Source: Parvibaculum indicum (GTDB lineage: Bacteria > Pseudomonadota > Alphaproteobacteria > Parvibaculales > Parvibaculaceae). Taken from it: a stretch of DNA of 64,000 nt. The notes below the pieces were generated by a model that was not told where the DNA came from, searched no databases, and was given only the letters and a program-made list of their open reading frames with translations. Shown in pieces: positions 4,641 to 18,892 of the stretch; the stretch's first letter is position 1, and each line of letters starts with the position of its first letter. A program made the position numbers and the translations under genes. The stretch lies in assembly GCF_011762095.1 (NCBI RefSeq), contig NZ_JAASQO010000003.1, forward strand, positions 248,001 through 312,000. Reading direction: 5' to 3'.

Positions 4641-6167
4641 ATGAAGGCCAGGGCGGGAAAGGACGAAGGCGGCAAGCCCGGCGCCCTGCGTCATGTCGCC
4701 GGGCCGGTATTGCGCCCGCTGCGCGCCAGTCTCTCCTTCCGGCTTCTGGTGATGACGGTGCTTTTCGTCATGCTGGCCGAAGTGCTGATCTTCGTCCCGT
4801 CCATTGCCAATTTCCGCAAGACATGGCTCGACCAGCGCGCCTCCGCCGCGCAGATCGCCTCTCTCTCGCTGGAAGCGACCCCCGACAACATGGTGTCGCC
4901 GGAGCTGCGCGAGGAACTTCTGCGCAATGCCCAGATATTCCTCGTGGTGCTGCACCGGACCGATGCGCGCAAGCTCCTGTTGAGCGAAAGCATGCCGCCA
5001 AAGGTCGATGCCTATTACGACCTTCAAAAGGCAACGCCCTTTTCGCTGGTGGTGGATGCTTTTGGAACATTGCTGGCGAAGGACGGGCGTACCATTCGTG
5101 TGATGAGCAAGCCGAACTATGCGGCCGGCGAGTCGATCGAAATCGTTCTGGACGAGACGCCGCTGCGGATTGCCATGCTTCACTATGGTGCGAATATCTT
5201 TTGGTTGTCCCTCGTGATTTCCGTCATCACCGCCGGGCTTGTCTATCTCGCGCTGCATGTTCTAATGGTGCGGCCCATGCGCCGGATTACACATCATATG
5301 GTCTCGTTTCGTCAGAACCCGGAGGATGCACGCCGCGTTATCCTGCCCTCCGGCCGTCTGGATGAAATCGGTGTGGCCGAGCGCGAACTCGCGGCCATGC
5401 AGTCCGAAATCCGCGCGACCCTCAATCAGAAGGCGCGCCTGGCCGCGCTGGGCGGCGCGGTGAGCAAGATCAATCACGACCTGCGCAATATTCTCGCGAG
5501 CGTGCAGCTTATCTCCGACCGTCTCGGCGCGGTCGACGACCCGACGGTGCAGAAACTGGCGCCGCGTCTTTTTTCATCCATCGACCGTGCGATCCAGCTT
5601 TGCACCGAAACGCTCAAATTCGGCCGCGCCAAGGAAGAGCTGCCACAGCGACAGCGTGTCCGCCTCGCGTCCTTCGCAAACGAGATCGCAGAGGCCGCGA
5701 TTCCCGAAAAGCTCGCGATCGGCTGGATCGATCGCGTCCCGGACGATCTGGAGGTCGATGCCGATCCCGACCAGCTTTTCCGCGTATTGCTGAACCTCGT
5801 GCGCAATGCGACGCAGGCGCTGGGCGAATGCGGACGCGCCGATGGTGAAATCCGGCTCGCCGCCCGGCGCTGCAAGGATCATGTGCATATCTATCTGTCG
5901 GACAACGGACCCGGCCTGCCGGAAAAGGCGAGGGAGCATCTTTTCGAGCCCTTTTCGGGCAGTGCGCGGGCGGGTGGCAGCGGTCTGGGCCTTGCCATTG
6001 CCGATGAGCTGGTGCGCGCTCATGGAGGGCATATCGACCTCGTGAAGTCGGACGCCTCCGGTACCGTCTTCCGCATCTGTATCCCCGATGGTGGCGGGTC
6101 GGATGTGGAGTGCGAGAAGGCGGAAGAGATCTGCGAGATGGAAGCCGACGGGACGGTGCGAACGTGA
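4641..6167 (+). CDS. Membrane sensor histidine kinase (HAMP, HisKA, HATPase)
   Basis: Inner-membrane sensor kinase, 508 residues. The first membrane helix is near residues 33-56 (LLVMTVLFVMLAEVLIFVP), then a periplasmic sensor of about 125 residues and a second helix near 183-205. A HAMP linker follows (VRPMRRITHHM). The dimerisation helix carries the phospho-acceptor His279 in NHDLRN. The ATPase domain has the N box (NLVRNATQAL), G1 (DNGPGLP) and G2 (GSGLGLAI). No response regulator is adjacent. Its stop overlaps the GTG of otsB, which ties it translationally to the trehalose genes. GAGGGAACGGA precedes the ATG. The signal is unknown; a link to osmotic or desiccation stress is inference from context. 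Confidence 0.9.
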   Translation: MKARAGKDEGGKPGALRHVAGPVLRPLRASLSFRLLVMTVLFVMLAEVLIFVPSIANFRKTWLDQRASAAQIASLSLEATPDNMVSPELREELLRNAQIFLVVLHRTDARKLLLSESMPPKVDAYYDLQKATPFSLVVDAFGTLLAKDGRTIRVMSKPNYAAGESIEIVLDETPLRIAMLHYGANIFWLSLVISVITAGLVYLALHVLMVRPMRRITHHMVSFRQNPEDARRVILPSGRLDEIGVAERELAAMQSEIRATLNQKARLAALGGAVSKINHDLRNILASVQLISDRLGAVDDPTVQKLAPRLFSSIDRAIQLCTETLKFGRAKEELPQRQRVRLASFANEIAEAAIPEKLAIGWIDRVPDDLEVDADPDQLFRVLLNLVRNATQALGECGRADGEIRLAARRCKDHVHIYLSDNGPGLPEKAREHLFEPFSGSARAGGSGLGLAIADELVRAHGGHIDLVKSDASGTVFRICIPDGGGSDVECEKAEEICEMEADGTVRT

Positions 6168-6904
6168 ACGATATCGATCTGCCTGTGCCGTCCCACGACT
6201 GGGCGCTCTTTCTCGATTTCGACGGTACGCTGACCGAGCTTGCACCGCATCCTGACGCCGTGCGCATCGATCCTGACCTGCCGGGACTTCTGGAGGCGAT
6301 CTTTTTGGAGCTCGACGGAGCGCTCGCCGTCGTCTCCGGCCGCACGCTTGCCGAGCTTGACCGTCATCTGGGGGTCCGCTTGCCTGCCGCGGGCGTCCAT
6401 GGGCTGGAACTGCGCGAGCGCCCCGGCGCCACCGTTCACCCGCCCGCGGAGGCGCTGCTTGTTGCGCGGCTCAAGGCGCGCCTTGCCGGTTTCGTCGCCG
6501 CCGACGATCGCCTCCTGCTGGAGGAAAAGCCGGGCGCGCTGGCGCTGCATTTTCGCCAGGCGCCCGACAGGGCAGCCGATTGCGCGCGCCTGATGGCGGA
6601 GGCGACGGCCGACCTCGATGGTATCCATGTGCTGAAGGGCAAAATGGTGCTGGAGGCAAAGCCCGCGCGTGTGAACAAGGGTCATGCCATAGAAACCATG
6701 ATGAAGGAGCCGCCCTTTTCGGGGCGCGTACCCGTTTTTGCGGGCGACGACACGACGGATGAAGACGGATTCCGTATCGTCAACGCGCTGGGCGGCATAT
6801 CGATCAAGATCGCCGATGGCGATACGCTCGCCCGCTACCGGATGGATGATGTCCGGGGCTTCATAAACTGGTTGAAGCATGTAGCATCCGTATTGTCGCC
6901 TTAG
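6164..6904 (+). CDS. otsB: Trehalose-6-phosphate phosphatase
   Basis: Dephosphorylates trehalose 6-phosphate to trehalose. It is a HAD-superfamily enzyme of 246 residues: motif I LFLDFDGTLTEL near the N-terminus, with the nucleophilic Asp and general acid-base Asp; motif II VVSGRTLAEL; and the C-terminal acidic motif FAGDDTTDEDGF that binds Mg2+. The start is taken as the GTG at 6164, which overlaps the kinase stop (GTGA). Starting at 6110 instead would add 18 residues with no family match. It is followed 36 bases later by the GH15 gene and then otsA, so synthase and phosphatase share one operon. Confidence 0.94.
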   Translation: MNDIDLPVPSHDWALFLDFDGTLTELAPHPDAVRIDPDLPGLLEAIFLELDGALAVVSGRTLAELDRHLGVRLPAAGVHGLELRERPGATVHPPAEALLVARLKARLAGFVAADDRLLLEEKPGALALHFRQAPDRAADCARLMAEATADLDGIHVLKGKMVLEAKPARVNKGHAIETMMKEPPFSGRVPVFAGDDTTDEDGFRIVNALGGISIKIADGDTLARYRMDDVRGFINWLKHVASVLSP

Positions 6905-6940
6905 GGCGTCGTTCTGTATCTGTGTTTCCAGGAGGATCTC

Positions 6941-8737
6941 TTGTCGTCGCTCGATCTCGGTGTCATCGGAAATGGCAGCTTTGGTGCATTGATCGACGAG
7001 GAGGGCCGGATCGTCTGGTGCTGTCTGCCTCGCTTCGACGGCGATCCCGTCTTTCACGATCTCCTGAACGGCAAGCAGGAAGGCGATAATGAGGGGGACA
7101 GGGGGTTTTGGGAGATCTCCCTGGTCGGCCAGAAAAGCGTCACCCGGGAATATCGCACCAACACCGCGATCCTCGTCACCACTATCTCCGACGACCATGG
7201 CAATGCGATAGAGATCACCGACTTCGCGCCGCGTTTCGCCACGCGTGGCCGCATGTTCCAGCCCATGTCGCTGGTCCGCCGTGTGCGGCCCGTCAGCGGT
7301 ACGCCGCGCATCAAGGTCCGGCTCCGTCCCGGCTTCAACTACGGCAAGATCGCACCCACGGTGACGCGCGGCTCCAACCATGCGCGTTTCATGCATTCCG
7401 GTCTCGTTCTGCGCCTCACCACCAACGCGCCGATCACCTATGTGCTGGACGAAACTTCTTTCCAGCTCAAGACGCCAGTGAGCTTCATTCTCGGTCCGGA
7501 CGAAACCCTTTCCGACGGCATAGAAGAAACCGCGCGGAAATTCGAAGAGGACACGGAGACCTATTGGCGCCAATGGGTGCGCCGCCTGGCGCTGCCGCTG
7601 GAATGGCAGCAGGCCGTCATCCGAGCCGCGATCACGCTGAAACTTTGTTGTTATGAGGAAACCGGCGCCATCGTCGCGGCCATGACGACGAGCATTCCGG
7701 AAGCTGCCGATAGCGGGCGCAACTGGGATTATCGTTTCTGCTGGCTGCGCGACGCTTTCTTCGTGATCCGCGCGCTGAACTCGCTCGCCGAAGTCGAAAC
7801 CATGGAGAATTATCTCCGCTATCTCGGCAATGTGGTCGGTGGCGCCGAAGACGGCCACTTGCAGCCCGTCTTCGGGATCGGCCTCGAAACGGACCTGACC
7901 GAGCATATCGTGGATACGCTGCCAGGCTATCGGGGCATGGGGCCGGTACGCCGCGGCAATCAGGCCTATGAGCATCTGCAGCACGACGTCTATGGCAATG
8001 TCGTGCTTGCCGCCGCGCAGAGTTTTTTCGACGATCGTCTGCTGCGTCCGGGCAGCCTTGCGGAGTTCGAGGCCTATGAAAAGGTCGGCGAGCGGGCCTA
8101 TGCGATGCACAATGTGCCTGACGCCGGCATGTGGGAACTCAGAACGCGGGCGCGCACCCATACCTCGTCGAGCCTGATGTGCTGGGCGGCCTGCGACCGG
8201 CTTGCGCGGATCGCCGCGCATATGGGGCTCGAAGACCGTGCAACCCATTGGCGCGGTCTTGCCGACGAAATCCATCGGACGATCTGCACCCGCGCCTGGA
8301 GCGAGGAAAAAGGCGCCTTCGTGGAAAGTTTCGAGGGCGAAGCACTCGACGCCGGCCTCTTGCTGATGGCCGAGGTGAATTTCATCAGCCCGGACGACAA
8401 GCGTTTTGTCGGTACGCTGGAGGCCATCGAGAAGTCGCTCCGGCGTGGTAATCATATGTTCCGATATGCCAGCGCAGACGATTTCGGTATGCCGCAAAAT
8501 GCCTTCAATATCTGCACTTTCTGGTACATCGACGCGCTTGCCCGCGTGGGCCGGACGGACGAGGCCCGCGAAATTTTCGAAAGCATTTTGTCCTGCCGCA
8601 ATTCGCTGGGATTGCTTTCGGAGGATACAGATCCGGCAACCGGCGAGCTGTGGGGTAATTATCCCCAGACCTATTCTTTGGTCGGCATCATCAATGCCGC
8701 CATGCGGCTGAGCCGGAAATGGGAGGAAGAGGTATGA
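6941..8737 (+). CDS. Glycoside hydrolase family 15 protein (glucoamylase/trehalase-like)
   Basis: Cytosolic inverting alpha-glucosidase family, 598 residues, no signal peptide. Family 15 features are the N-terminal beta-sandwich beginning LGVIGNGSFGALIDEEGRIV, with WCCLPRFDGDPVF, and the (alpha/alpha)6 domain with the signature GRNWDYRFCWLRDAFF (about residue 263). The late GELWGNYPQTYSLVG precedes the final helix. Family 15 includes glucoamylases and the bacterial/archaeal trehalases; sequence alone does not choose between them. Its place between otsB and otsA and upstream of glk favours trehalose or maltodextrin hydrolysis to glucose. The start is TTG with a strong GGAGG at 6931-6935; the stop overlaps the otsA ATG. 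Confidence 0.9.
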   Translation: MSSLDLGVIGNGSFGALIDEEGRIVWCCLPRFDGDPVFHDLLNGKQEGDNEGDRGFWEISLVGQKSVTREYRTNTAILVTTISDDHGNAIEITDFAPRFATRGRMFQPMSLVRRVRPVSGTPRIKVRLRPGFNYGKIAPTVTRGSNHARFMHSGLVLRLTTNAPITYVLDETSFQLKTPVSFILGPDETLSDGIEETARKFEEDTETYWRQWVRRLALPLEWQQAVIRAAITLKLCCYEETGAIVAAMTTSIPEAADSGRNWDYRFCWLRDAFFVIRALNSLAEVETMENYLRYLGNVVGGAEDGHLQPVFGIGLETDLTEHIVDTLPGYRGMGPVRRGNQAYEHLQHDVYGNVVLAAAQSFFDDRLLRPGSLAEFEAYEKVGERAYAMHNVPDAGMWELRTRARTHTSSSLMCWAACDRLARIAAHMGLEDRATHWRGLADEIHRTICTRAWSEEKGAFVESFEGEALDAGLLLMAEVNFISPDDKRFVGTLEAIEKSLRRGNHMFRYASADDFGMPQNAFNICTFWYIDALARVGRTDEAREIFESILSCRNSLGLLSEDTDPATGELWGNYPQTYSLVGIINAAMRLSRKWEEEV

Positions 8738-12965: not shown

Positions 12966-14027
12966 ATGGCCGAAGCGCGGATTACGCCGGGACCCCGCAA
13001 TCTGATTACGGATGTAGCTGGGCTTTCCATCGGCAATGCGCAAGATGCGTGCGCGCGCACCGGCGTGACCGTGTTGTTGCCGGACGAGCCGGGCATCGCT
13101 GCCATGGATGTGCGCGGCGGCGGACCTGGCACGCGCGAAAGCGATGCGCTGGATCCAAGGCATTTGCTGGAAGGCCGCGTCGATGCGTTGGTACTGTCGG
13201 GTGGGTCGGTCTACGGGCTCGATGCGCCTTCAGGCGTCACGCATTGGCTGGGAAGGCAGGGGCGCGGTTTCGCCTTTCCGGGGCTTTCCGTCACAGCGCC
13301 CATCGTTCCCGGCGCAATCCTCTTCGATCTCGCCAATGGCGGCGAGAAATACTGGGCCGCACAGGGGGCGCACGGCGTCGTGCAGGAACCGCCCTATCGC
13401 GCGCTGGGCTATGAGGCCTGTGAGGCGGCGGGTGCGGATTTCGCGCTCGGCAATGCGGGGGCGGGGTTCGGCGCGCAGGCCGGGCGCTACAAGGGCGGGC
13501 TCGGCTCCGCTTCCGCCGTGACGCCGGACGGCATCACCGTCGGTGCGCTCGTCGCGGTGAATGCGGTCGGCTCGCCCGTCATCCCCGGCACGGACTGTTT
13601 CTGGGCCGCGCCCTTCGAGCTCGATGGCGAATTCGGCGGCAGGCGCTGGGACGGGCAGGCTTCCCCCGCAGCCTGCGACCCGCTGGAAGGCTCCAAACTT
13701 GCAGCCGGGCCCCGCGAAAACACCACCATCGCCATCGTTGCGACCGATGCGACGCTCGATGCGACGGCGATGCACCGCATCGCCGTAATGGCGCATGACG
13801 GCTTCGCCCGCGCGCTCCGCCCTGTTCATGCGCCGGTGGACGGCGATGCCGTTTTCGCGCTTTCGACGGGCCGGAAACCGCTGGAGGCGGAGGCGCGGAC
13901 GCTCGACATCACCCGGCTGGGCGCCATCGCGGCCGATTGCACGGCCCGCGCCATCGCCAGAGGCGTTTTCGAGGCGGAAACGCTGGGGGCTATCCTCTCA
14001 TGGGCTGACCGCCACGGGGGGCGGTAG
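12966..14027 (+). CDS. P1 family (S58, DmpA-like) peptidase
   Basis: N-terminal nucleophile aminopeptidase family typified by DmpA and the beta-peptidyl aminopeptidases, 353 residues. Visible features are the start PGPRNLITDVAGLSIGNA, the region RGGGPGTRESDAL, GGSVYGLDAPSGV and the probable autocleavage site in ENTTIAIVATDA. There Thr253, after Asn252, is the likely nucleophile; DmpA itself uses Ser, so the assignment is by position. AGGAG at 12955-12959 fixes the ATG at 12966. Monocistronic; divergent from ggt. Substrate unknown. Confidence 0.9.
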   Translation: MAEARITPGPRNLITDVAGLSIGNAQDACARTGVTVLLPDEPGIAAMDVRGGGPGTRESDALDPRHLLEGRVDALVLSGGSVYGLDAPSGVTHWLGRQGRGFAFPGLSVTAPIVPGAILFDLANGGEKYWAAQGAHGVVQEPPYRALGYEACEAAGADFALGNAGAGFGAQAGRYKGGLGSASAVTPDGITVGALVAVNAVGSPVIPGTDCFWAAPFELDGEFGGRRWDGQASPAACDPLEGSKLAAGPRENTTIAIVATDATLDATAMHRIAVMAHDGFARALRPVHAPVDGDAVFALSTGRKPLEAEARTLDITRLGAIAADCTARAIARGVFEAETLGAILSWADRHGGR

Positions 14028-14156: not shown

Positions 14157-14233
14157 GCGCCGGTAGCTCAGCTGGATAGAGCACCAGACTACGAATCTGG
14201 GGGTCGGGAGTTCGAATCTTCCCCGGCGCGCCA
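14157..14233 (+). tRNA. tRNA-Arg (anticodon ACG)
   Basis: A 77-base cloverleaf folds by eye. The acceptor stem GCGCCGG pairs with CCGGCGC; the D arm is in GGTAGCTCAGCTGGATAGAGC. The anticodon stem CCAGA/TCTGG encloses loop CTACGAA (anticodon ACG, read as ICG after deamination), and the T loop is GTTCGAATC. The discriminator is G, and the CCA is encoded. It reads CGN arginine codons. A lower-GC gene lies directly downstream, but I found no copy of the tRNA 3' end and no integrase. Confidence 0.96.
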
Positions 14234-14297
14234 TCCCTTCATCGCCATGCAAACAACGCCTCCAGTGCGTCAGGGACATTTGTTCTGCCGAGCGGCA

Positions 14298-17200
14298 TTA
14301 AATGCCGGTTTGGTGAGCCGACGACAGCGTCTCCCGCAGCGATGCCTGGAAGCGTTCGACCGAATAATCCTCCGAGATGCGTCGCAACGCATTGCGCCGG
14401 ACCCGGTTCCAGAGGGCTTCATCCTTATAAAGCCGGTAGACGGCGTCGGCGAAGGCCTGTGGCGTGTCGGCGACCAGAATCTCCTCTTCGTCACGCCAGC
14501 CAAGTTGCGAGGCAAGCACGGAGGTGGCGACGACCGGAACGCCGCTGGCGGCGGCATGATGAACCTTGAGGGGGATCCCGGCGGCGAAACGTGTCGGCGC
14601 GACGAAGACCCGGGCCTGGTTGAACAGAGAATAAAGGTCGTCGACCGGGCCGAGAAGCTCTATGCCGTCGGTCTCGAGTGCCCGAATACTCGCGGCGCCG
14701 CTATGCCCCGCAACCTTGAGCGAAGCATCGCTTTCCGGTGAAAGCGCCAGAAGCGGCATCACGTTTTCGGCGTACCACGTCAGGCTGTCGACATTGGGCG
14801 AATCTTCCTCCTCAAGGCGGCCCAGGAAGACAATGTCCTTGCGCAGGGCAAACGCCGCGGGCGTCGGGCCGGTGTCGAGCGCGTAGCCGATGACATGAGT
14901 TGGTTTTCCGGTCGCGTGCCGGAAAACCTCTGCCTCCTTTTCCGTCACCGCGGTTATCTGGTCGGCTGTTTCGGCCAGGGCCAATTCCCGGGATTTGTCA
15001 TGTTTGGCCTTGGCGGCCAGTGCCTTGTCGCCGAGTATCTCGGCCTTTATCGCGGTACGCGAGGAGAAGAGCGCCTCGGCGTCGTATGTGACTTTCGTTC
15101 CCTCAAACAGGTCGGGGCGCTGCCGGTAGACCTCCGACAGCGCCTCCATGTTGTGGGGGCGGCTGATAAAGATATGCTGATAATAGCCTTTCCGCTCCTC
15201 GAGGAATTGCTCGAGGCCGGCTGGGCCCCAACCCATTGCGACCTCGACGCCTTCGGGCACGCCGGACCGGGCAACCCTCCAGTCTTCGTATGGAACTATG
15301 GAGGGAAAGAATGTCACGAAGTATCCCTCTTCAACCATAAGGCGCAAAATGCTGTTGGATCGGGGAAGGCCTGCGCCGAGCGACACAATCGGAATGCGGT
15401 CTTCGATATAGAGGATCCGTTCGCAGTCGCCGCGCATCCTCGCCAGAAGGGGGGTGGTTGCAAGAGGAGACAAATGATTGCGCAGTTGGCTTGAATGTTT
15501 CCTCAGAAACTTTTGCCGATTGATCTTCTGAAGTTCGATCGCTCGCTCGGTGTTTTCGGATGACCCGAACTCGAAATGGTCGATCACCGCGCGCGGTTCG
15601 AAAATGACTTTCATTCCGGCGTGACGGATGCGCATGCATAGGTCCGTTTCCTCATAATACGCTGGAGCGAAATCCGGATCGAAGCCGCCAAGCCGCTGGA
15701 AAACACCTTCCCGGATCAAAAGAAACGCGCCGGAGCAGTAGTCGACTTCACGGCGGAAATTATAGGCGCCGTCTGACGGGTCGTCGCCACGGCCATATCC
15801 AAGGCAGTCGCCGTCGGCCCAGATAATGCTGCCGGCCTCCTGCAACGTGCCGTCGGGCAATATGATCGGGCCGCCCACGGCGCCGACATCGCCATCTGCC
15901 TCCATGGCCTCGACCGCCGCGGCGATCGAACCGGGCCTTACGACGGCATCGTTGTTGAGCAACAGCACATGGCCGCTTCTTACCGCTTCAAGGCCGCGAT
16001 TAACGGCTTTCAGAAATCCGATATTCTTGTCATGTGAAATCAGCCGCACATTGTCGATGCGCTCCAGGAGTTCGGACGTGCGATCTGTCGAGGCATTGTC
16101 GATCAGAATGACTTCGAACGGGAGATCGGTTTCGGCCTCGAGAGAACGTAGGCAGCGCAAGGTAAGCCCGGCCTGATTCCACAGAACCAGAATGATCGAA
16201 ACGCGCGGTTCGTCCGCATGGGAAAAGCGGATACGGGCATTCGAGGCGAGAAACACGGCAAGGTCTCGGTCGACATCCGCACGAACCTCGGCTTTCAGCG
16301 CATCCATTGATCTAACGGATGCCTCGGAACCTGTAACGTCGTCGGCGCCCCTGAATGGCGTTGCGAGCGCGTCGAGACGTCGATCCAGTTGCGAGCGTTT
16401 CGGGTTGACTTTGGCCGCCGATTCTCCGAAACGACGTTTCGTCCTGCCCGGCAGCGGCCAACCGTCTTTCGACAAGGTTCGCAGCAGACGATACTTCAGA
16501 AGCTGACGGAGCGCGGAGAGGGGGCGTTTGCGGGTCATGCGCAAACTCTGTTCGAACTCGCGCGCAAGCTCGAATGCTTCGCCGGCGCGCGCTTCGCTGG
16601 CACTCAACCGGAACCGCAGATGCATTCTCTCGTCACGGAGATAGCCGATCTCCCGGTTCAGTTTTCCGATTTCCGTGTCCTGCAAACTCCGAAGGCCTTT
16701 CCCGAGCGCGATCTGGGAACGCAAGCGCGTCGTTTCGGCGCGAAGGGCGCTGAGCTCGCTTCCTCTCTCTGCGGAAAGGTCGCATTGAGCCTTTTCCTCT
16801 CGAGCCGACATCCTCTCCAGAAAAGGCTGCGCGTCGTCCAGCCCTGTCATCGCCGTCGGATCGGACGGATTGAAACGCAGCCGCATCAGCAAGTCCGCGA
16901 CGTCGTCGATCCGGGCCGCCGTTTCCTCGTCCACGCCCTCGAACGGCGTATCCCCGAGATGGTGCTGAAGGCGCGGCGACAGAAATTCCTCGATCTTGTC
17001 GGCATATGTGTCGTTTCCATCGGCTGGCGGGAGAGAGAACGCGGTACGCATCCGCTGGACCTGCGGACGCCAATCCCGGATCAAATCCTCGTATGAGAAA
17101 AAGGCGCGGCGATGACCCCGGGTCGCGACCTCCGCATCCAGGTGATGGCGCATCCAGAGCAGGCCGGCTTGTTCGGGCGGGGTTTTGTTGCGCGCGGCAA

Positions 17201-17642
17201 GGGAGGCCGCCACGGCACGCGGATCCCTTAGCGAGTGGAGAAACGCCGCTTCGTATCCAAGGCGGTCCAGTGCCTCCACATAGAGCGGAACGAATCGCGA
17301 AATACGAGGATCCTTGAGCACGATCGTTTCGGCATCGCCATATTCCGACTGGATCGCCGCGGCGATCAGCTTCACCAGATCGGGGCCATACTCGGCCAGG
17401 CGGTCTTCCGCGTTGAATGCACGCCAGTCGTCCCAGGCGCTGCCGCATGCTGCAAGAAGTACGTCATTGAGTCCGACAATAATTTCGGATTCCCAGAACC
17501 CGCGTTCATTGTCGTCCTGGGGCGGCATCAAGGTTTTTGGGGCCGCGGCACCGGACAAATTCAGGAGCCGTGAAAACGCACTCGTGCCCGAACGATGCGT
17601 ACCAAGAACGAGAATGCAGGTTTTGCTCATCTTCCGACTCAT
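14298..17642 (-). CDS. Three-module sulfotransferase / GT2 / GT4 glycosyltransferase protein
   Basis: About 1114 residues with three catalytic-looking modules. Residues about 1-300 resemble P-loop sulfotransferases: LVLGTHRSGTSAFSRL (PAPS 5'-phosphosulfate loop) and FLHSLRDPRAVAASLA. A coiled-coil stretch with heptads of Leu, Arg and Glu follows (about 320-400). From about 480 a GT2 domain has VSIILVLWNQAG, IDNAST and the metal-site-like LLNNDAVV, ending in YYEETDLCMRIRHAG. From about 740 a GT4-like domain has FLGRLEEEDSPNVDSL and PLKVHHAAASGVPVVATS. It probably decorates a surface polysaccharide or glycoprotein. Two 60-base samples counted by hand are 50% and 43% GC, below the window's usual level. 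No Shine-Dalgarno decides the start; ATGs at 17654 and 17630 are alternatives. Confidence 0.82.
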   Translation of the reverse strand: MSRKMSKTCILVLGTHRSGTSAFSRLLNLSGAAAPKTLMPPQDDNERGFWESEIIVGLNDVLLAACGSAWDDWRAFNAEDRLAEYGPDLVKLIAAAIQSEYGDAETIVLKDPRISRFVPLYVEALDRLGYEAAFLHSLRDPRAVAASLAARNKTPPEQAGLLWMRHHLDAEVATRGHRRAFFSYEDLIRDWRPQVQRMRTAFSLPPADGNDTYADKIEEFLSPRLQHHLGDTPFEGVDEETAARIDDVADLLMRLRFNPSDPTAMTGLDDAQPFLERMSAREEKAQCDLSAERGSELSALRAETTRLRSQIALGKGLRSLQDTEIGKLNREIGYLRDERMHLRFRLSASEARAGEAFELAREFEQSLRMTRKRPLSALRQLLKYRLLRTLSKDGWPLPGRTKRRFGESAAKVNPKRSQLDRRLDALATPFRGADDVTGSEASVRSMDALKAEVRADVDRDLAVFLASNARIRFSHADEPRVSIILVLWNQAGLTLRCLRSLEAETDLPFEVILIDNASTDRTSELLERIDNVRLISHDKNIGFLKAVNRGLEAVRSGHVLLLNNDAVVRPGSIAAAVEAMEADGDVGAVGGPIILPDGTLQEAGSIIWADGDCLGYGRGDDPSDGAYNFRREVDYCSGAFLLIREGVFQRLGGFDPDFAPAYYEETDLCMRIRHAGMKVIFEPRAVIDHFEFGSSENTERAIELQKINRQKFLRKHSSQLRNHLSPLATTPLLARMRGDCERILYIEDRIPIVSLGAGLPRSNSILRLMVEEGYFVTFFPSIVPYEDWRVARSGVPEGVEVAMGWGPAGLEQFLEERKGYYQHIFISRPHNMEALSEVYRQRPDLFEGTKVTYDAEALFSSRTAIKAEILGDKALAAKAKHDKSRELALAETADQITAVTEKEAEVFRHATGKPTHVIGYALDTGPTPAAFALRKDIVFLGRLEEEDSPNVDSLTWYAENVMPLLALSPESDASLKVAGHSGAASIRALETDGIELLGPVDDLYSLFNQARVFVAPTRFAAGIPLKVHHAAASGVPVVATSVLASQLGWRDEEEILVADTPQAFADAVYRLYKDEALWNRVRRNALRRISEDYSVERFQASLRETLSSAHQTGI

Positions 17643-17860
17643 TATCCACGTCATATAGATAAGGCGACATGCCAGGTCGGGATAGTGATTTGGCCGTTGT
17701 CGGAGGTCGAGACCTGTTATTTTTGAATGAATTTCGCAATCTTTGTCGCATGCGGCATGCATCAACCCGTCCAGAGCGGATGCGTCTCCCTGCTGTCAAT
17801 CTTTCGGGAAGCCTCTCATGAGGATCCGAATGGCACCGATCGACAGACGGGGCCGTTCAT

Positions 17861-18892
17861 TTACCTCTCCACGAACAACGCCTCGCAGCCCGTGCCGGCC
17901 AGGATCGTATCCACTGCCTCGCGGTCGGCGGCGCTCAGCGCCGCATGTTTTTCCCTGAGCCATGCAAGGCATTTTCCCTGATAGGGGAAAGGCTGCTGGA
18001 CCCATTCGCGGCCGTCGACTTCCGTGCGGACTTCGTCGTCGTCATTCATCAGCGCTTTGGCATTGGCGAGCATGACGGGGGCATAGACGCGGCCGACCTC
18101 ATTGAGGAGGCTTTTGATTGTTTCGGGGATTGCACCTCGGTCGATCCAGTCTTCTTCCTTCGGGTCGACGCCGGATGAATCTTCCACGATATCGACCCAG
18201 GCGAAGACTCGCGGCGCGCGCCTGAGCGTTTCGTCCATCGGCGTCGGGTCGAAATGGGTAAGCTGGGTCAGCTGTCCGTAAAAGCCGAAATCGGACGCGC
18301 CGGGCCGTCTGCCCATCAGGTAAGGCGCGGTTTCAAGATGCGCTTTCAGCGCGTCGAGAATGCGCAGATAGCTCGCCTCGATCACCGGGGCGGTCACATC
18401 GTTGGAACCGACGACATAAAGCCGCTTGATCTGCCGGTCGGCGAAAACCCCGCCCATCTTTAGCGCTTCTTCTTCCGTTTGGGTGACGTTCCGCCAGCGG
18501 GGCAGGATCGCCGCCGCGCGGTCGATATCCGGCTTGTAGTGCCAGCGATAGTGGAACATCGCCTTGGTAAGCCATTCATCGGCGAAATCTTCCAGCAGAT
18601 AGTCGAGAAACTCGATCACGGGATCGGCCGGCACGATCTTGCGGTCGGAAAACGCCGCCTCGAAGCGGCGGATGAGCGGCGTGGAATCCACCACGGCCTC
18701 CATCTCGCCCTTGTCATTCGGCAGATAGAATGTCGGCAGCAATTGTACTTTCGGCTTGGGCAGGCCGAGCGCCGCGGGCGCATCGCCGATCAGGAAACGA
18801 TAGGGGATCAGCCGGTAACGCAGCACCGCCAGCATCTTCCGCGTATAGGGCGAGCCGGGCGCGCCGCTAAGCAGAACGGGTCTTGCCGTCAT
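17861..18892 (-). CDS. Glutathione S-transferase family protein
   Basis: 343 residues. The N-terminal thioredoxin-like domain has LLSGAPGSPYTRKMLAVLRY; the Ser before Pro-Tyr sits where GSTs place the glutathione-activating residue. VDSTPLIRRFEAAF corresponds to the conserved glutathione-binding turn. An alpha-helical C-terminal domain with GRRPGASDFGFYGQL follows. The protein is longer than classical GSTs (about 200-230), with extra helical sequence between the domains. GGGGAGGAAG fixes the ATG at 18892; the open frame continues upstream without homology. It is divergent from the membrane DUF1330-like gene, and the shared promoter region holds two similar palindromes. Substrate unknown. Confidence 0.8.
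   Translation of the reverse strand: MTARPVLLSGAPGSPYTRKMLAVLRYRLIPYRFLIGDAPAALGLPKPKVQLLPTFYLPNDKGEMEAVVDSTPLIRRFEAAFSDRKIVPADPVIEFLDYLLEDFADEWLTKAMFHYRWHYKPDIDRAAAILPRWRNVTQTEEEALKMGGVFADRQIKRLYVVGSNDVTAPVIEASYLRILDALKAHLETAPYLMGRRPGASDFGFYGQLTQLTHFDPTPMDETLRRAPRVFAWVDIVEDSSGVDPKEEDWIDRGAIPETIKSLLNEVGRVYAPVMLANAKALMNDDDEVRTEVDGREWVQQPFPYQGKCLAWLREKHAALSAADREAVDTILAGTGCEALFVER

Follow-up and report, generated by a model that had tools for sequence, protein, structure and literature searches.

A sulfotransferase-glycosyltransferase fusion gene at a variable tRNA-Arg site in Parvibaculum indicum and its candidate role in the synthesis of a sulfated surface polysaccharide

Genes and features at the locus

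The window, i.e. the whole stretch of 64,000 nucleotides of Parvibaculum indicum DNA analyzed here, contains an open reading frame whose predicted product joins a sulfotransferase module, a helix-rich linker, a GT2 module, and a GT4-like module (Table 1). The preliminary description of this DNA had proposed three transferase modules in one polypeptide, which is borne out by the Pfam domains in the open 1114-aa frame. Downstream of the N-terminal sulfotransferase, Glycos_transf_2 matches residues 482-649 (80.3 bits) and Glyco_trans_1_4 matches residues 935-1074 (84.4 bits). The start ATG is located at 17642 and a further in-frame ATG at 17630. An AlphaFold model of the whole protein has a mean pLDDT of 84.2. 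The tRNA-Arg gene lies 64 bases from the 3' end of the fusion gene, as had been noted before, and is convergent with its stop codon. A scan for promoters and terminators found no signal exceeding chance. The gene on the far side of the locus (17861..18892) presumably is glutathione-transferase-like, judged by eye from its sequence.

Table 1. Coordinates of the features at the locus (positions in the window; residues of the fusion protein)
Feature	Position	Strand	Basis or remark
Peptidase S58 gene, conserved, across the tRNA from the fusion gene	12969..14027	plus	
tRNA-Arg (acg), bounds the variable segment on one side	14157..14233	plus	
Segment without counterpart in the closest species (G015)	14239..17860		Locus comparison
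Fusion protein (sulfotransferase-linker-GT2-GT4-like), 1114 aa	14298..17642	minus	Open frame, Pfam, model
GT-B, GT4-like module, residues 739-1110	14313..15428	minus	Pfam, motifs, fold match
GT2 (GT-A) module, residues 476-735	15438..16217	minus	Pfam, motifs, model
Helix-rich linker, residues 231-475	16218..16952	minus	Predicted helices, much of it modeled with low confidence
Sulfotransferase module, residues 5-230	16953..17630	minus	Pfam PF13469; conserved residues, 15-row alignment
Far-side neighbor	17861..18892	minus	Same place in G015; no Pfam match at 1e-8

The base composition of the gene deviates from its surroundings. Its GC content is 60.1% vs 63.2% for the window, and 4 of 122 stretches of the same length are equally low. 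Among 41 ORFs of at least 200 aa, which were chosen by a simple script and included the fusion ORF from its furthest start, the fusion ORF has the lowest GC content and the second lowest GC3 (0.683; mean 0.792, SD 0.042). The 60-base samples from which a low GC content had first been deduced recount to 50%, 43.3%, and 71.7%, but these are extreme 60-mers and the shift over the whole gene is mild. Ten ORFs scanned between 6020 and 22444 contain no polysaccharide families except GT20, represented by a trehalose-phosphate-synthase-type gene at 8719; four of the ten lack a Pfam match at 1e-8.

A variable site behind tRNA-Arg

No orthologue of the fusion protein was found in 26 congeners, 18 of which are at least 90% complete. 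The peptidase and tRNA-Arg genes are adjacent in all 19 congeners fetched, and in none of these, the closest species included, does the 3' side of the tRNA show DNA or protein similarity to the segment that carries the fusion gene (E 1e-3). In the closest species, about 465 nt of unrelated DNA lie between the same two neighbors. The comparison of this locus among relatives, which the preliminary description had suggested, thus found that the fusion gene is not at the site in most of them. There is good support for a variable site at which the fusion gene was recently gained (or lost), and the event may well have been the gain of a single accessory gene and not a loss. The fusion gene alone fills the segment, which contains no integrase, and the window holds no second exact copy of 12 bases or more of the tRNA end. 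The earlier proposal of horizontal acquisition is therefore upheld as far as variability of the gene within the genus at tRNA-Arg is concerned, but the case is weaker than first proposed, the GC shift being mild and neither an integrase nor a tRNA-end repeat marking an insertion.

Ten proteins encoded at the same place in congeners include two Fic proteins, a DNA methylase with an Mrr-type nuclease domain, and ParB- and TrwB-like proteins. This inventory is consistent with the possibility, which we regard with considerable doubt, that the fusion gene is cargo of a mobile or defense hot spot and alters the cell surface, for example by changing a phage receptor, its carrier element now being gone. 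However, four of the ten proteins look ordinary (an AsnC-type regulator, Lcl_C, a cupin, and a photolyase-related protein) and one is unmatched, neither integrase nor tRNA-end repeat occurs near the gene, and none of the 20 matching phage records reaches 80% of the protein. By the same coverage, a phage origin of the gene was rejected. Plasmid records matching the fusion protein number 435, and none covers 80% of it. A viral structure search listed mostly glycosyltransferases among its matches. The hot-spot explanation concerns how the gene arrived and is compatible with the functional interpretation preferred below.

Sulfotransferase and glycosyltransferase modules

With the whole protein as query, Sulfotransfer_3 (PF13469) matches residues 10-205 at 29.5 bits, above the curated cut-off of 27, and the score rises to 33.9 bits if the module is queried alone. 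The 5'-phosphosulfate P-loop (RxGTS type) reads LGTHRSGTSA, and its residues G14, R17, G19, T20, S21, and A22 are invariant in all 15 aligned rows including the window's protein. The same holds true for the KDPR motif (K110-x-P112-R113) and the predicted 3'-phosphate site (R139...S147). In the 3'-phosphate site for PAPS, an Arg and a Ser are spaced eight residues apart. Based on family score and motifs, the N-terminal module most likely is a PAPS-type sulfotransferase, with predicted use of PAPS. The same genome encodes an APS kinase domain within a 644-residue frame. Structural comparisons were less informative: a PDB-sequence profile search with the module retrieved sulfotransferases at E 0.1-0.6 only, and the domain folded alone without an alignment gave a poor model (pLDDT 40). 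The 50 fold matches listed are filled by the glycosyltransferase parts and contain no sulfotransferase, which is not evidence against the fold.

GT-A enzymes are characterized by an Asp in the nucleotide site, an NxD motif, and an ED-type base. In the GT2 module these motifs are intact (D515, N563-N564-D565, and E664-x-x-D667), and the metal and catalytic positions are conserved in 79-81 of 81 relatives. Residues 740-1114 of the model have a GT-B fold and align with sucrose-phosphate synthase (6kih_A; Z 31.5, rmsd 3.0, 347 aligned residues). The classical GT4 signature is EX7E. Because this motif is missing, the module is labeled "GT-B, GT4-like": both Glu are replaced (A1021, H1029), while R1018 and K1026 are retained. 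Thus, the module may have a weak or altered activity or serve a structural role. Among the 81 aligned relatives, the first Glu occurs in none and the second in 65. Catalytic residues missing from two modules would have spoken against the preliminary description, but only the GT4-like module departs from its motif.

The linker between the modules

Two long helices are predicted in the linker with low confidence, at residues 262-312 and 321-368. The coiled coil assumed before is better called a helical linker, in which heptad periodicity stands out only in the second helix: 2.5% of shuffles are equally strong for helix 321-368, compared to 62% for helix 262-312 and 28% for the entire linker. Six of the seven proteins with this architecture (see below) have a spacer of 212-267 residues separating the sulfotransferase from GT2. 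The seventh, from a Thiotrichales bacterium (L174), has a linker of 674 residues with coiled-coil-like sequence, and that of the Thiomargarita protein (L205) contains repeated ERDAQLA-like units. A heptad signal matched by less than 5% of shuffles was obtained for three of the seven linkers (L185, L201, and L213).

The same architecture in other bacteria

With a custom sulfotransferase profile, the order sulfotransferase-GT2-GT4 was detected in single ORFs of four phyla, comprising 6 of 81 related GT2-GT4 ORFs: Kiritimatiellota B12222 (L167), a Syntrophaceae member (L185), Verrucomicrobia (L213), Thiomargarita (L205), a gammaproteobacterium (L201), and the Thiotrichales bacterium. An architecture unique to the genome of P. 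indicum is thus ruled out. The first five share 28-36% identity with the window's protein over the alignment, and L174 shares 40% within its best segment. In Smithella, the sulfotransferase and GT2-GT4 modules are encoded by adjoining genes in the same order. The N-terminal module on the GT2-GT4 block varies and can be a GT2, methyltransferase, TPR/GT41, deacetylase, or sulfotransferase; according to Pfam, 21 of 68 relatives carry a GT2, six a methyltransferase, and four a sulfotransferase. The window's protein belongs to a widespread mix-and-match family of sugar-building proteins. An open frame of 25,156 residues seen in one genome (G134) results at least in part from base masking and is to that extent artificial (2,000 N within the fetched 11 kb).

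A single ancestral fusion, with all seven proteins in one clade, was rejected for the glycosyltransferase block (AU p 8e-71; the test used 45 of the 99 rows in the tree). A common clade of the window's protein, L167, and L174 was not rejected (p 0.08), and the remaining four as one clade were (p 0.0002). These split clades may mean that the N-terminal module was gained repeatedly, or that it was lost and replaced. The sister of the window's protein in this tree is from Actibacterium (L135). The sulfotransferase tree (33 rows) resolves too little for further conclusions, and L167, L213, and L185 sit on long branches in it.

Several relatives are located among polysaccharide genes. L174 adjoins genes for RmlD, an RmlB-like protein, an ABC ATPase with Wzt_C, and another sulfotransferase; the Actibacterium gene adjoins RgpF; rfbABCD is found near a Roseomonas relative (L226); and in Cereibacter, two stand-alone sulfotransferases on plasmids, among the nearest of this kind, lie close to polysaccharide-export or RgpF genes. 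For L201, L205, and L213, a single neighbor each was scanned and no clear polysaccharide gene was seen. The genome of P. indicum itself contains a rhamnan-type cluster on another contig (C5), separate from the fusion gene. The view that the fusion is a single-protein device that both builds and sulfates a glycan was overstated: self-sufficiency is not supported, because this genome has an APS kinase domain as well as the C5 cluster, and because some relatives reside among sugar-nucleotide and ABC-exporter genes.

Proposed function and comparison with known systems

The interpretation that we favor, at roughly even confidence, is that the protein catalyzes two glycosyl transfers and a single sulfation step in the synthesis of a sulfated surface polysaccharide, and that its gene was gained singly behind tRNA-Arg. 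Each catalytic activity is a prediction here, and so are the substrate, the compartment of the cell, and the joint action with the C5 cluster. The fusion gene would encode a cytoplasmic glycan-assembly protein, whose GT2 and GT4-like modules would add two sugars to a lipid-linked or growing polysaccharide. The N-terminal module would move sulfate from PAPS onto the glycan extended by the glycosyltransferase modules, and the linker would keep these parts together. The product most likely would be a sulfated, deoxyhexose-containing O-antigen or capsule. The genes for the exporter and the other enzymes would lie elsewhere in the genome, probably with the C5 cluster among them, a cluster that only its content connects with the fusion gene.

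Multi-transferase chains are known from WbbB-type polymerase-terminators, which carry several transferases per chain; their terminator is a Kdo transferase, in place of the sulfotransferase found here. WbdA/WbdD of E. coli O9a and Klebsiella O3/O5, an O-antigen polymerase and a chain-length regulator with a coiled-coil ruler and a methyl/phosphate module, likewise couple polymerization to a modifying module (PMC5320592, in the text available). In contrast, they are two proteins, and the likeness to the single sulfotransferase-bearing protein is one of organization. Bcs3, the capsule polymerase of H. influenzae b, also is a single-chain multi-enzyme machine for a surface polymer but has other transferase and phosphatase domains, and the word "sulfotransferase" is absent from the main text (PMC10299916). 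Clusters for sulfated polymers pair sulfotransferases with glycosyltransferases in Vibrio sp. KMM 8419 (PMC11641403), Cobetia marina (PMC11766843), and Synechocystis (xss; PMC8205485), and the former two also contain dTDP-rhamnose, PAPS, and ABC-export genes. Unlike in the window, the sulfotransferases of these clusters are listed as separate genes, and the available parts of the three papers mention no fusion. Among the literature matches listed, as far as their text was available and with subscription journals mostly outside the scope, no sulfotransferase-glycosyltransferase fusion was found.

Alternatively, and in our estimate rather unlikely, the protein could be a chain terminator and ruler, in which GT2-GT4 polymerizes and the sulfotransferase, spaced by the linker, adds sulfate to the chain at its non-reducing end and thereby halts elongation, as methyl or phosphate caps do for WbdA/WbdD. 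The linker length of 212-267 residues in six of the seven proteins, the long coiled-coil-like linker of L174, and the repeats in L205 would fit this function, as would the methyltransferases and sulfotransferases (by Pfam or custom profile) among the N-terminal modules. Wzt_C is a domain that reads chain caps, and its presence in the ABC ATPase beside L174 points in the same direction. A precedent is WbdD, which caps the polymer and, jointly with WbdA, determines how long it becomes (PMC5320592, in part). However, the window's linker has a weak heptad signal and a model of low confidence, three of the seven linkers have a signal matched by less than 5% of shuffles, the frequent N-terminal GT2 does not point to caps, and no Wzt_C match was found in the genome of P. 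indicum. A wider form of this idea, which is unlikely, would be a recurrent class of single-chain machines, assembled more than once, in which a GT2-GT4 polymerase, a helical ruler, and a sulfotransferase make and stop a polysaccharide and sulfate serves as terminal cap and chain-length signal instead of as decoration; the window's gene would then have been swapped in at a tRNA hot spot and would switch the serotype by itself.

There is also a small chance that the target is not a surface polysaccharide but, for example, a glycolipid or a flagellin glycan. The fusion gene stands alone, and PF13469 sulfotransferases are known from glycolipid and Nod-factor sulfation (PMC11625862, in part), but several relatives sit in polysaccharide clusters. 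A decaying or inactive fusion, to which the deviating EX7E motif could point, is very improbable given the open 1114-aa frame, the retained sulfotransferase and GT2 motifs, and the absence of the first Glu in 81 and of the second in 16 of the 81 relatives too.

Significance

Sulfotransferases of bacterial polysaccharides are described as little characterized (PMC11641403, in the text available). The preferred function in surface polysaccharide synthesis would add a case in which fusion of a sulfotransferase to two glycosyltransferases ties sulfate to a definite sugar-transfer step, and therefore the substrate and the order of reactions are testable with one purified protein. Moreover, the exchange of N-terminal modules on the GT2-GT4 block across phyla, as read from the sequences compared here, suggests that bacterial surface glycans may change via the swap of one gene.

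Domain architecture and recurrence of the fusion

The preliminary description had placed three transferase modules and a coiled coil in one chain. The modules were confirmed by Pfam matches in an intact ORF (see table), and in NCBIfam none of the best 25 of 31 families listed (E up to 1) reached its own cut-off. An AlphaFold model from 34 aligned sequences has a mean pLDDT of 84.2, high over most of the sulfotransferase and glycosyltransferase parts and low across much of residues 290-440, and its C-terminal part, residues 740-1114, resembles solved GT-B enzymes (best hit with Z 31.5 and rmsd 3.0 over 347 residues). The linker fits the description only in part: helices are predicted at residues 262-312 and 321-368, in a low-confidence region of the model, but the heptad periodicity is weak.

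Features of the fusion gene and other proteins of the same architecture
Feature	Location or lineage	Strand	Description	Basis
Fusion ORF	window 14298-17642	minus	1114 aa, reading frame intact	
Sulfotransferase domain	residues 10-205			Pfam
GT2 domain	residues 482-649			Pfam
GT4-type C-terminal domain	residues 935-1074			Pfam
L167	Kiritimatiellota		ST-GT2-GT4 in one ORF	own profiles
L185	Syntrophaceae		ST-GT2-GT4 in one ORF	own profiles
L213	Verrucomicrobia		ST-GT2-GT4 in one ORF	own profiles
L201	Gammaproteobacteria		ST-GT2-GT4 in one ORF	own profiles
L205	Thiomargarita		ST-GT2-GT4 in one ORF	own profiles
L174	Thiotrichales		ST-GT2-GT4 in one ORF	own profiles

Proteins with the GT2-GT4 part (about residues 450-1107) occur widely, at more than 80 loci; the 80 best were kept and contain 81 ORFs with the block. 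Our own profiles detected an N-terminal sulfotransferase module in six of the 81 besides the window's protein; none of 17 further GT2-GT4 ORFs carries one. Related arrangements include a 1529-aa ORF (L246) with sulfotransferase, GT2 and split GT4-type matches, proteins at four loci (L243, L244, L245, L224) that combine a sulfotransferase with at least two GT2 matches, and Smithella, where the sulfotransferase is a separate gene directly upstream of the GT2-GT4 gene and is preceded by two more. When N-terminal parts of at least 150 aa were scanned with Pfam at 1e-4 (n=68; best 25 of 44 families), they matched GT2 (21), TPR repeats (6), Methyltransf_24 (6), GT41 (4), Sulfotransfer_3 (4) and PIG-L (3). 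In the window's own genome, PF13469 is matched at seven places, the fusion gene included, and contig C20 encodes a 692-residue TPR-sulfotransferase protein (L253:10604-12682).

In the GT tree, the window's protein is sister to an Actibacterium protein (L135) that has no sulfotransferase (SH-aLRT 100), and a single clade of all seven fused proteins was rejected. The tree thus indicates that the architecture was arrived at more than once, or that the N-terminal module was repeatedly lost or replaced. The fusion is a variant among multi-module glycan assembly proteins and is not unique to this genome.

Contrary to a scenario in which two modules have lost their catalytic residues, the sulfotransferase and GT2 motifs are kept and the departure from EX7E is confined to the GT4-like module. 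All 15 aligned rows, among them the window's, share sulfotransferase residues G14, R17, G19-A22, K110, P112-R113, R139 and S147, and 79-81 of the 81 ORFs retain GT2 residues D515, N563, D565, E664, D667 and H689. In the GT4-like module, R1018 (80/81) and K1026 (81/81) are conserved. The first Glu of EX7E is replaced by A or G in all 81 ORFs; the second is Glu in 65, His in the window's protein and one other, and is also missing from all but one of the six other fused proteins.

The tRNA-Arg site and the origin of the gene

At the distance described, 64 nt from the gene, lies tRNA-Arg(acg), in convergent orientation. Searches of 26 congeners, 18 of which are at least 90% complete, and of the order's 39 other genomes gave no match over the whole fusion protein; for a few genomes, the scoring covered some of the initial candidates. 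A tRNA match was present in 19 of 22 congeners searched, and all 19 loci were retrieved. The S58 peptidase adjoins the tRNA in every one, and on its side the window is alignable over at least 400 nt with 18 of them. On the other side, neither window segment 14234-17860 (as DNA) nor the fusion protein (E 1e-3) has a match in the tRNA flanks retrieved from the 19 congeners (0.6-8.1 kb); presence of the gene at this site in most relatives, the outcome that would have spoken against an acquired gene, was not observed. In the closest species (G015; identity 92% for the peptidase, 89% for the far neighbour), homology stops on one side five bases beyond the tRNA, and about 465 nt of unrelated DNA separate the neighbours that flank the window's gene.

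The gene-side flanks also differ among groups of congeners. Ten proteins were scanned from eight flanks. One had no match; the others were two Fic proteins, a DNA methylase that also carries an Mrr-type nuclease domain, one ParB-like and one TrwB-like protein, an AsnC-type regulator, and Lcl_C, cupin and photolyase-related proteins. The methylase (L291:4576-6405) lies about 1.3 kb behind tRNA-Arg, and another congener (L295) has an ORF of equal start and length, the domain scan being that of L291. Because the 19 flanks lack similarity to the window segment and differ between congeners, the site behind tRNA-Arg is variable, and the fusion gene is its content in this genome.

The gene's composition is a mild signal. 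The 60-base samples behind the earlier claim of low GC were correct but extreme: the whole gene has 60.1% GC against 63.2%, with 4 of 122 windows of gene length as low, and its GC3 (0.683; mean 0.792, SD 0.042) is the second lowest of 41 ORFs of at least 200 aa. The lowest (0.677) belongs to an 825-residue ORF (window 6020-8497, minus) without a Pfam match at 1e-8 or a PDB relative at E 0.01. Horizontal acquisition at the tRNA, as first proposed, agrees with the variable site and with the gene's absence from the congener searches, but neither an integrase near the gene nor a repeat of the tRNA end was found. Gain is more likely than loss. The fusion gene is real, intact and accessory.

Genomic context and proposed function

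Several relatives lie among genes for surface polysaccharides or export. The Thiotrichales fusion (L174) is accompanied by a second sulfotransferase gene, by RmlD and RmlB-like genes and by an ABC ATPase carrying Wzt_C, the Kiritimatiellota fusion (L167) by ABC ATPases and a GT2, and the relative L226 by rfbABCD; the Actibacterium gene adjoins RgpF. For L201, L205 and L213, the one neighbour scanned each was uninformative. Two stand-alone Cereibacter sulfotransferases (45.5% and 41.7% identical) have ABC-export and sugar-transporter genes, or RgpF, in their vicinity. The window's genome encodes an APS kinase domain within a 644-residue frame, and a low-GC3 cluster (0.50-0.69) at the end of contig C5 (about 227-240 kb; L254:10277-19900 and L258) contains RmlA-, RmlB- and RmlC-like genes, as judged from Pfam families, two RgpF and a UDP-glucose-type dehydrogenase. 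A Wzt_C domain was not found in this genome. Beside the rhamnan-type cluster, a 900-residue ORF (L254:7219-9921) joins a GT2 to an ABC exporter part with membrane and ATPase domains.

The simplest reading is that the fusion protein would transfer two sugars and one sulfate onto a surface polysaccharide made jointly with a cluster like that on C5. On a bolder reading, the sulfate might cap the chain and so control its length. PMC5320592 describes such cap-and-ruler control for WbdD with WbdA. The likeness lies in the spacing and sequence of the linkers, taken together with the exchangeable modifying modules. WbbB offers a further comparison. Six of the seven fused proteins have 212-267 residues between sulfotransferase and GT2, and L174 has 674; the linker of L174, about 670 residues long (L174:6688-8709), is coiled-coil-like in sequence, and the Thiomargarita protein (L205) contains repeated ERDAQLA-like units. 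However, only three of the seven linkers pass a heptad test at 5%, and the window's is not among them; the comparison is no more than suggestive. For the fusion protein, the proposed transfer of sugars and sulfate is a testable mechanism.
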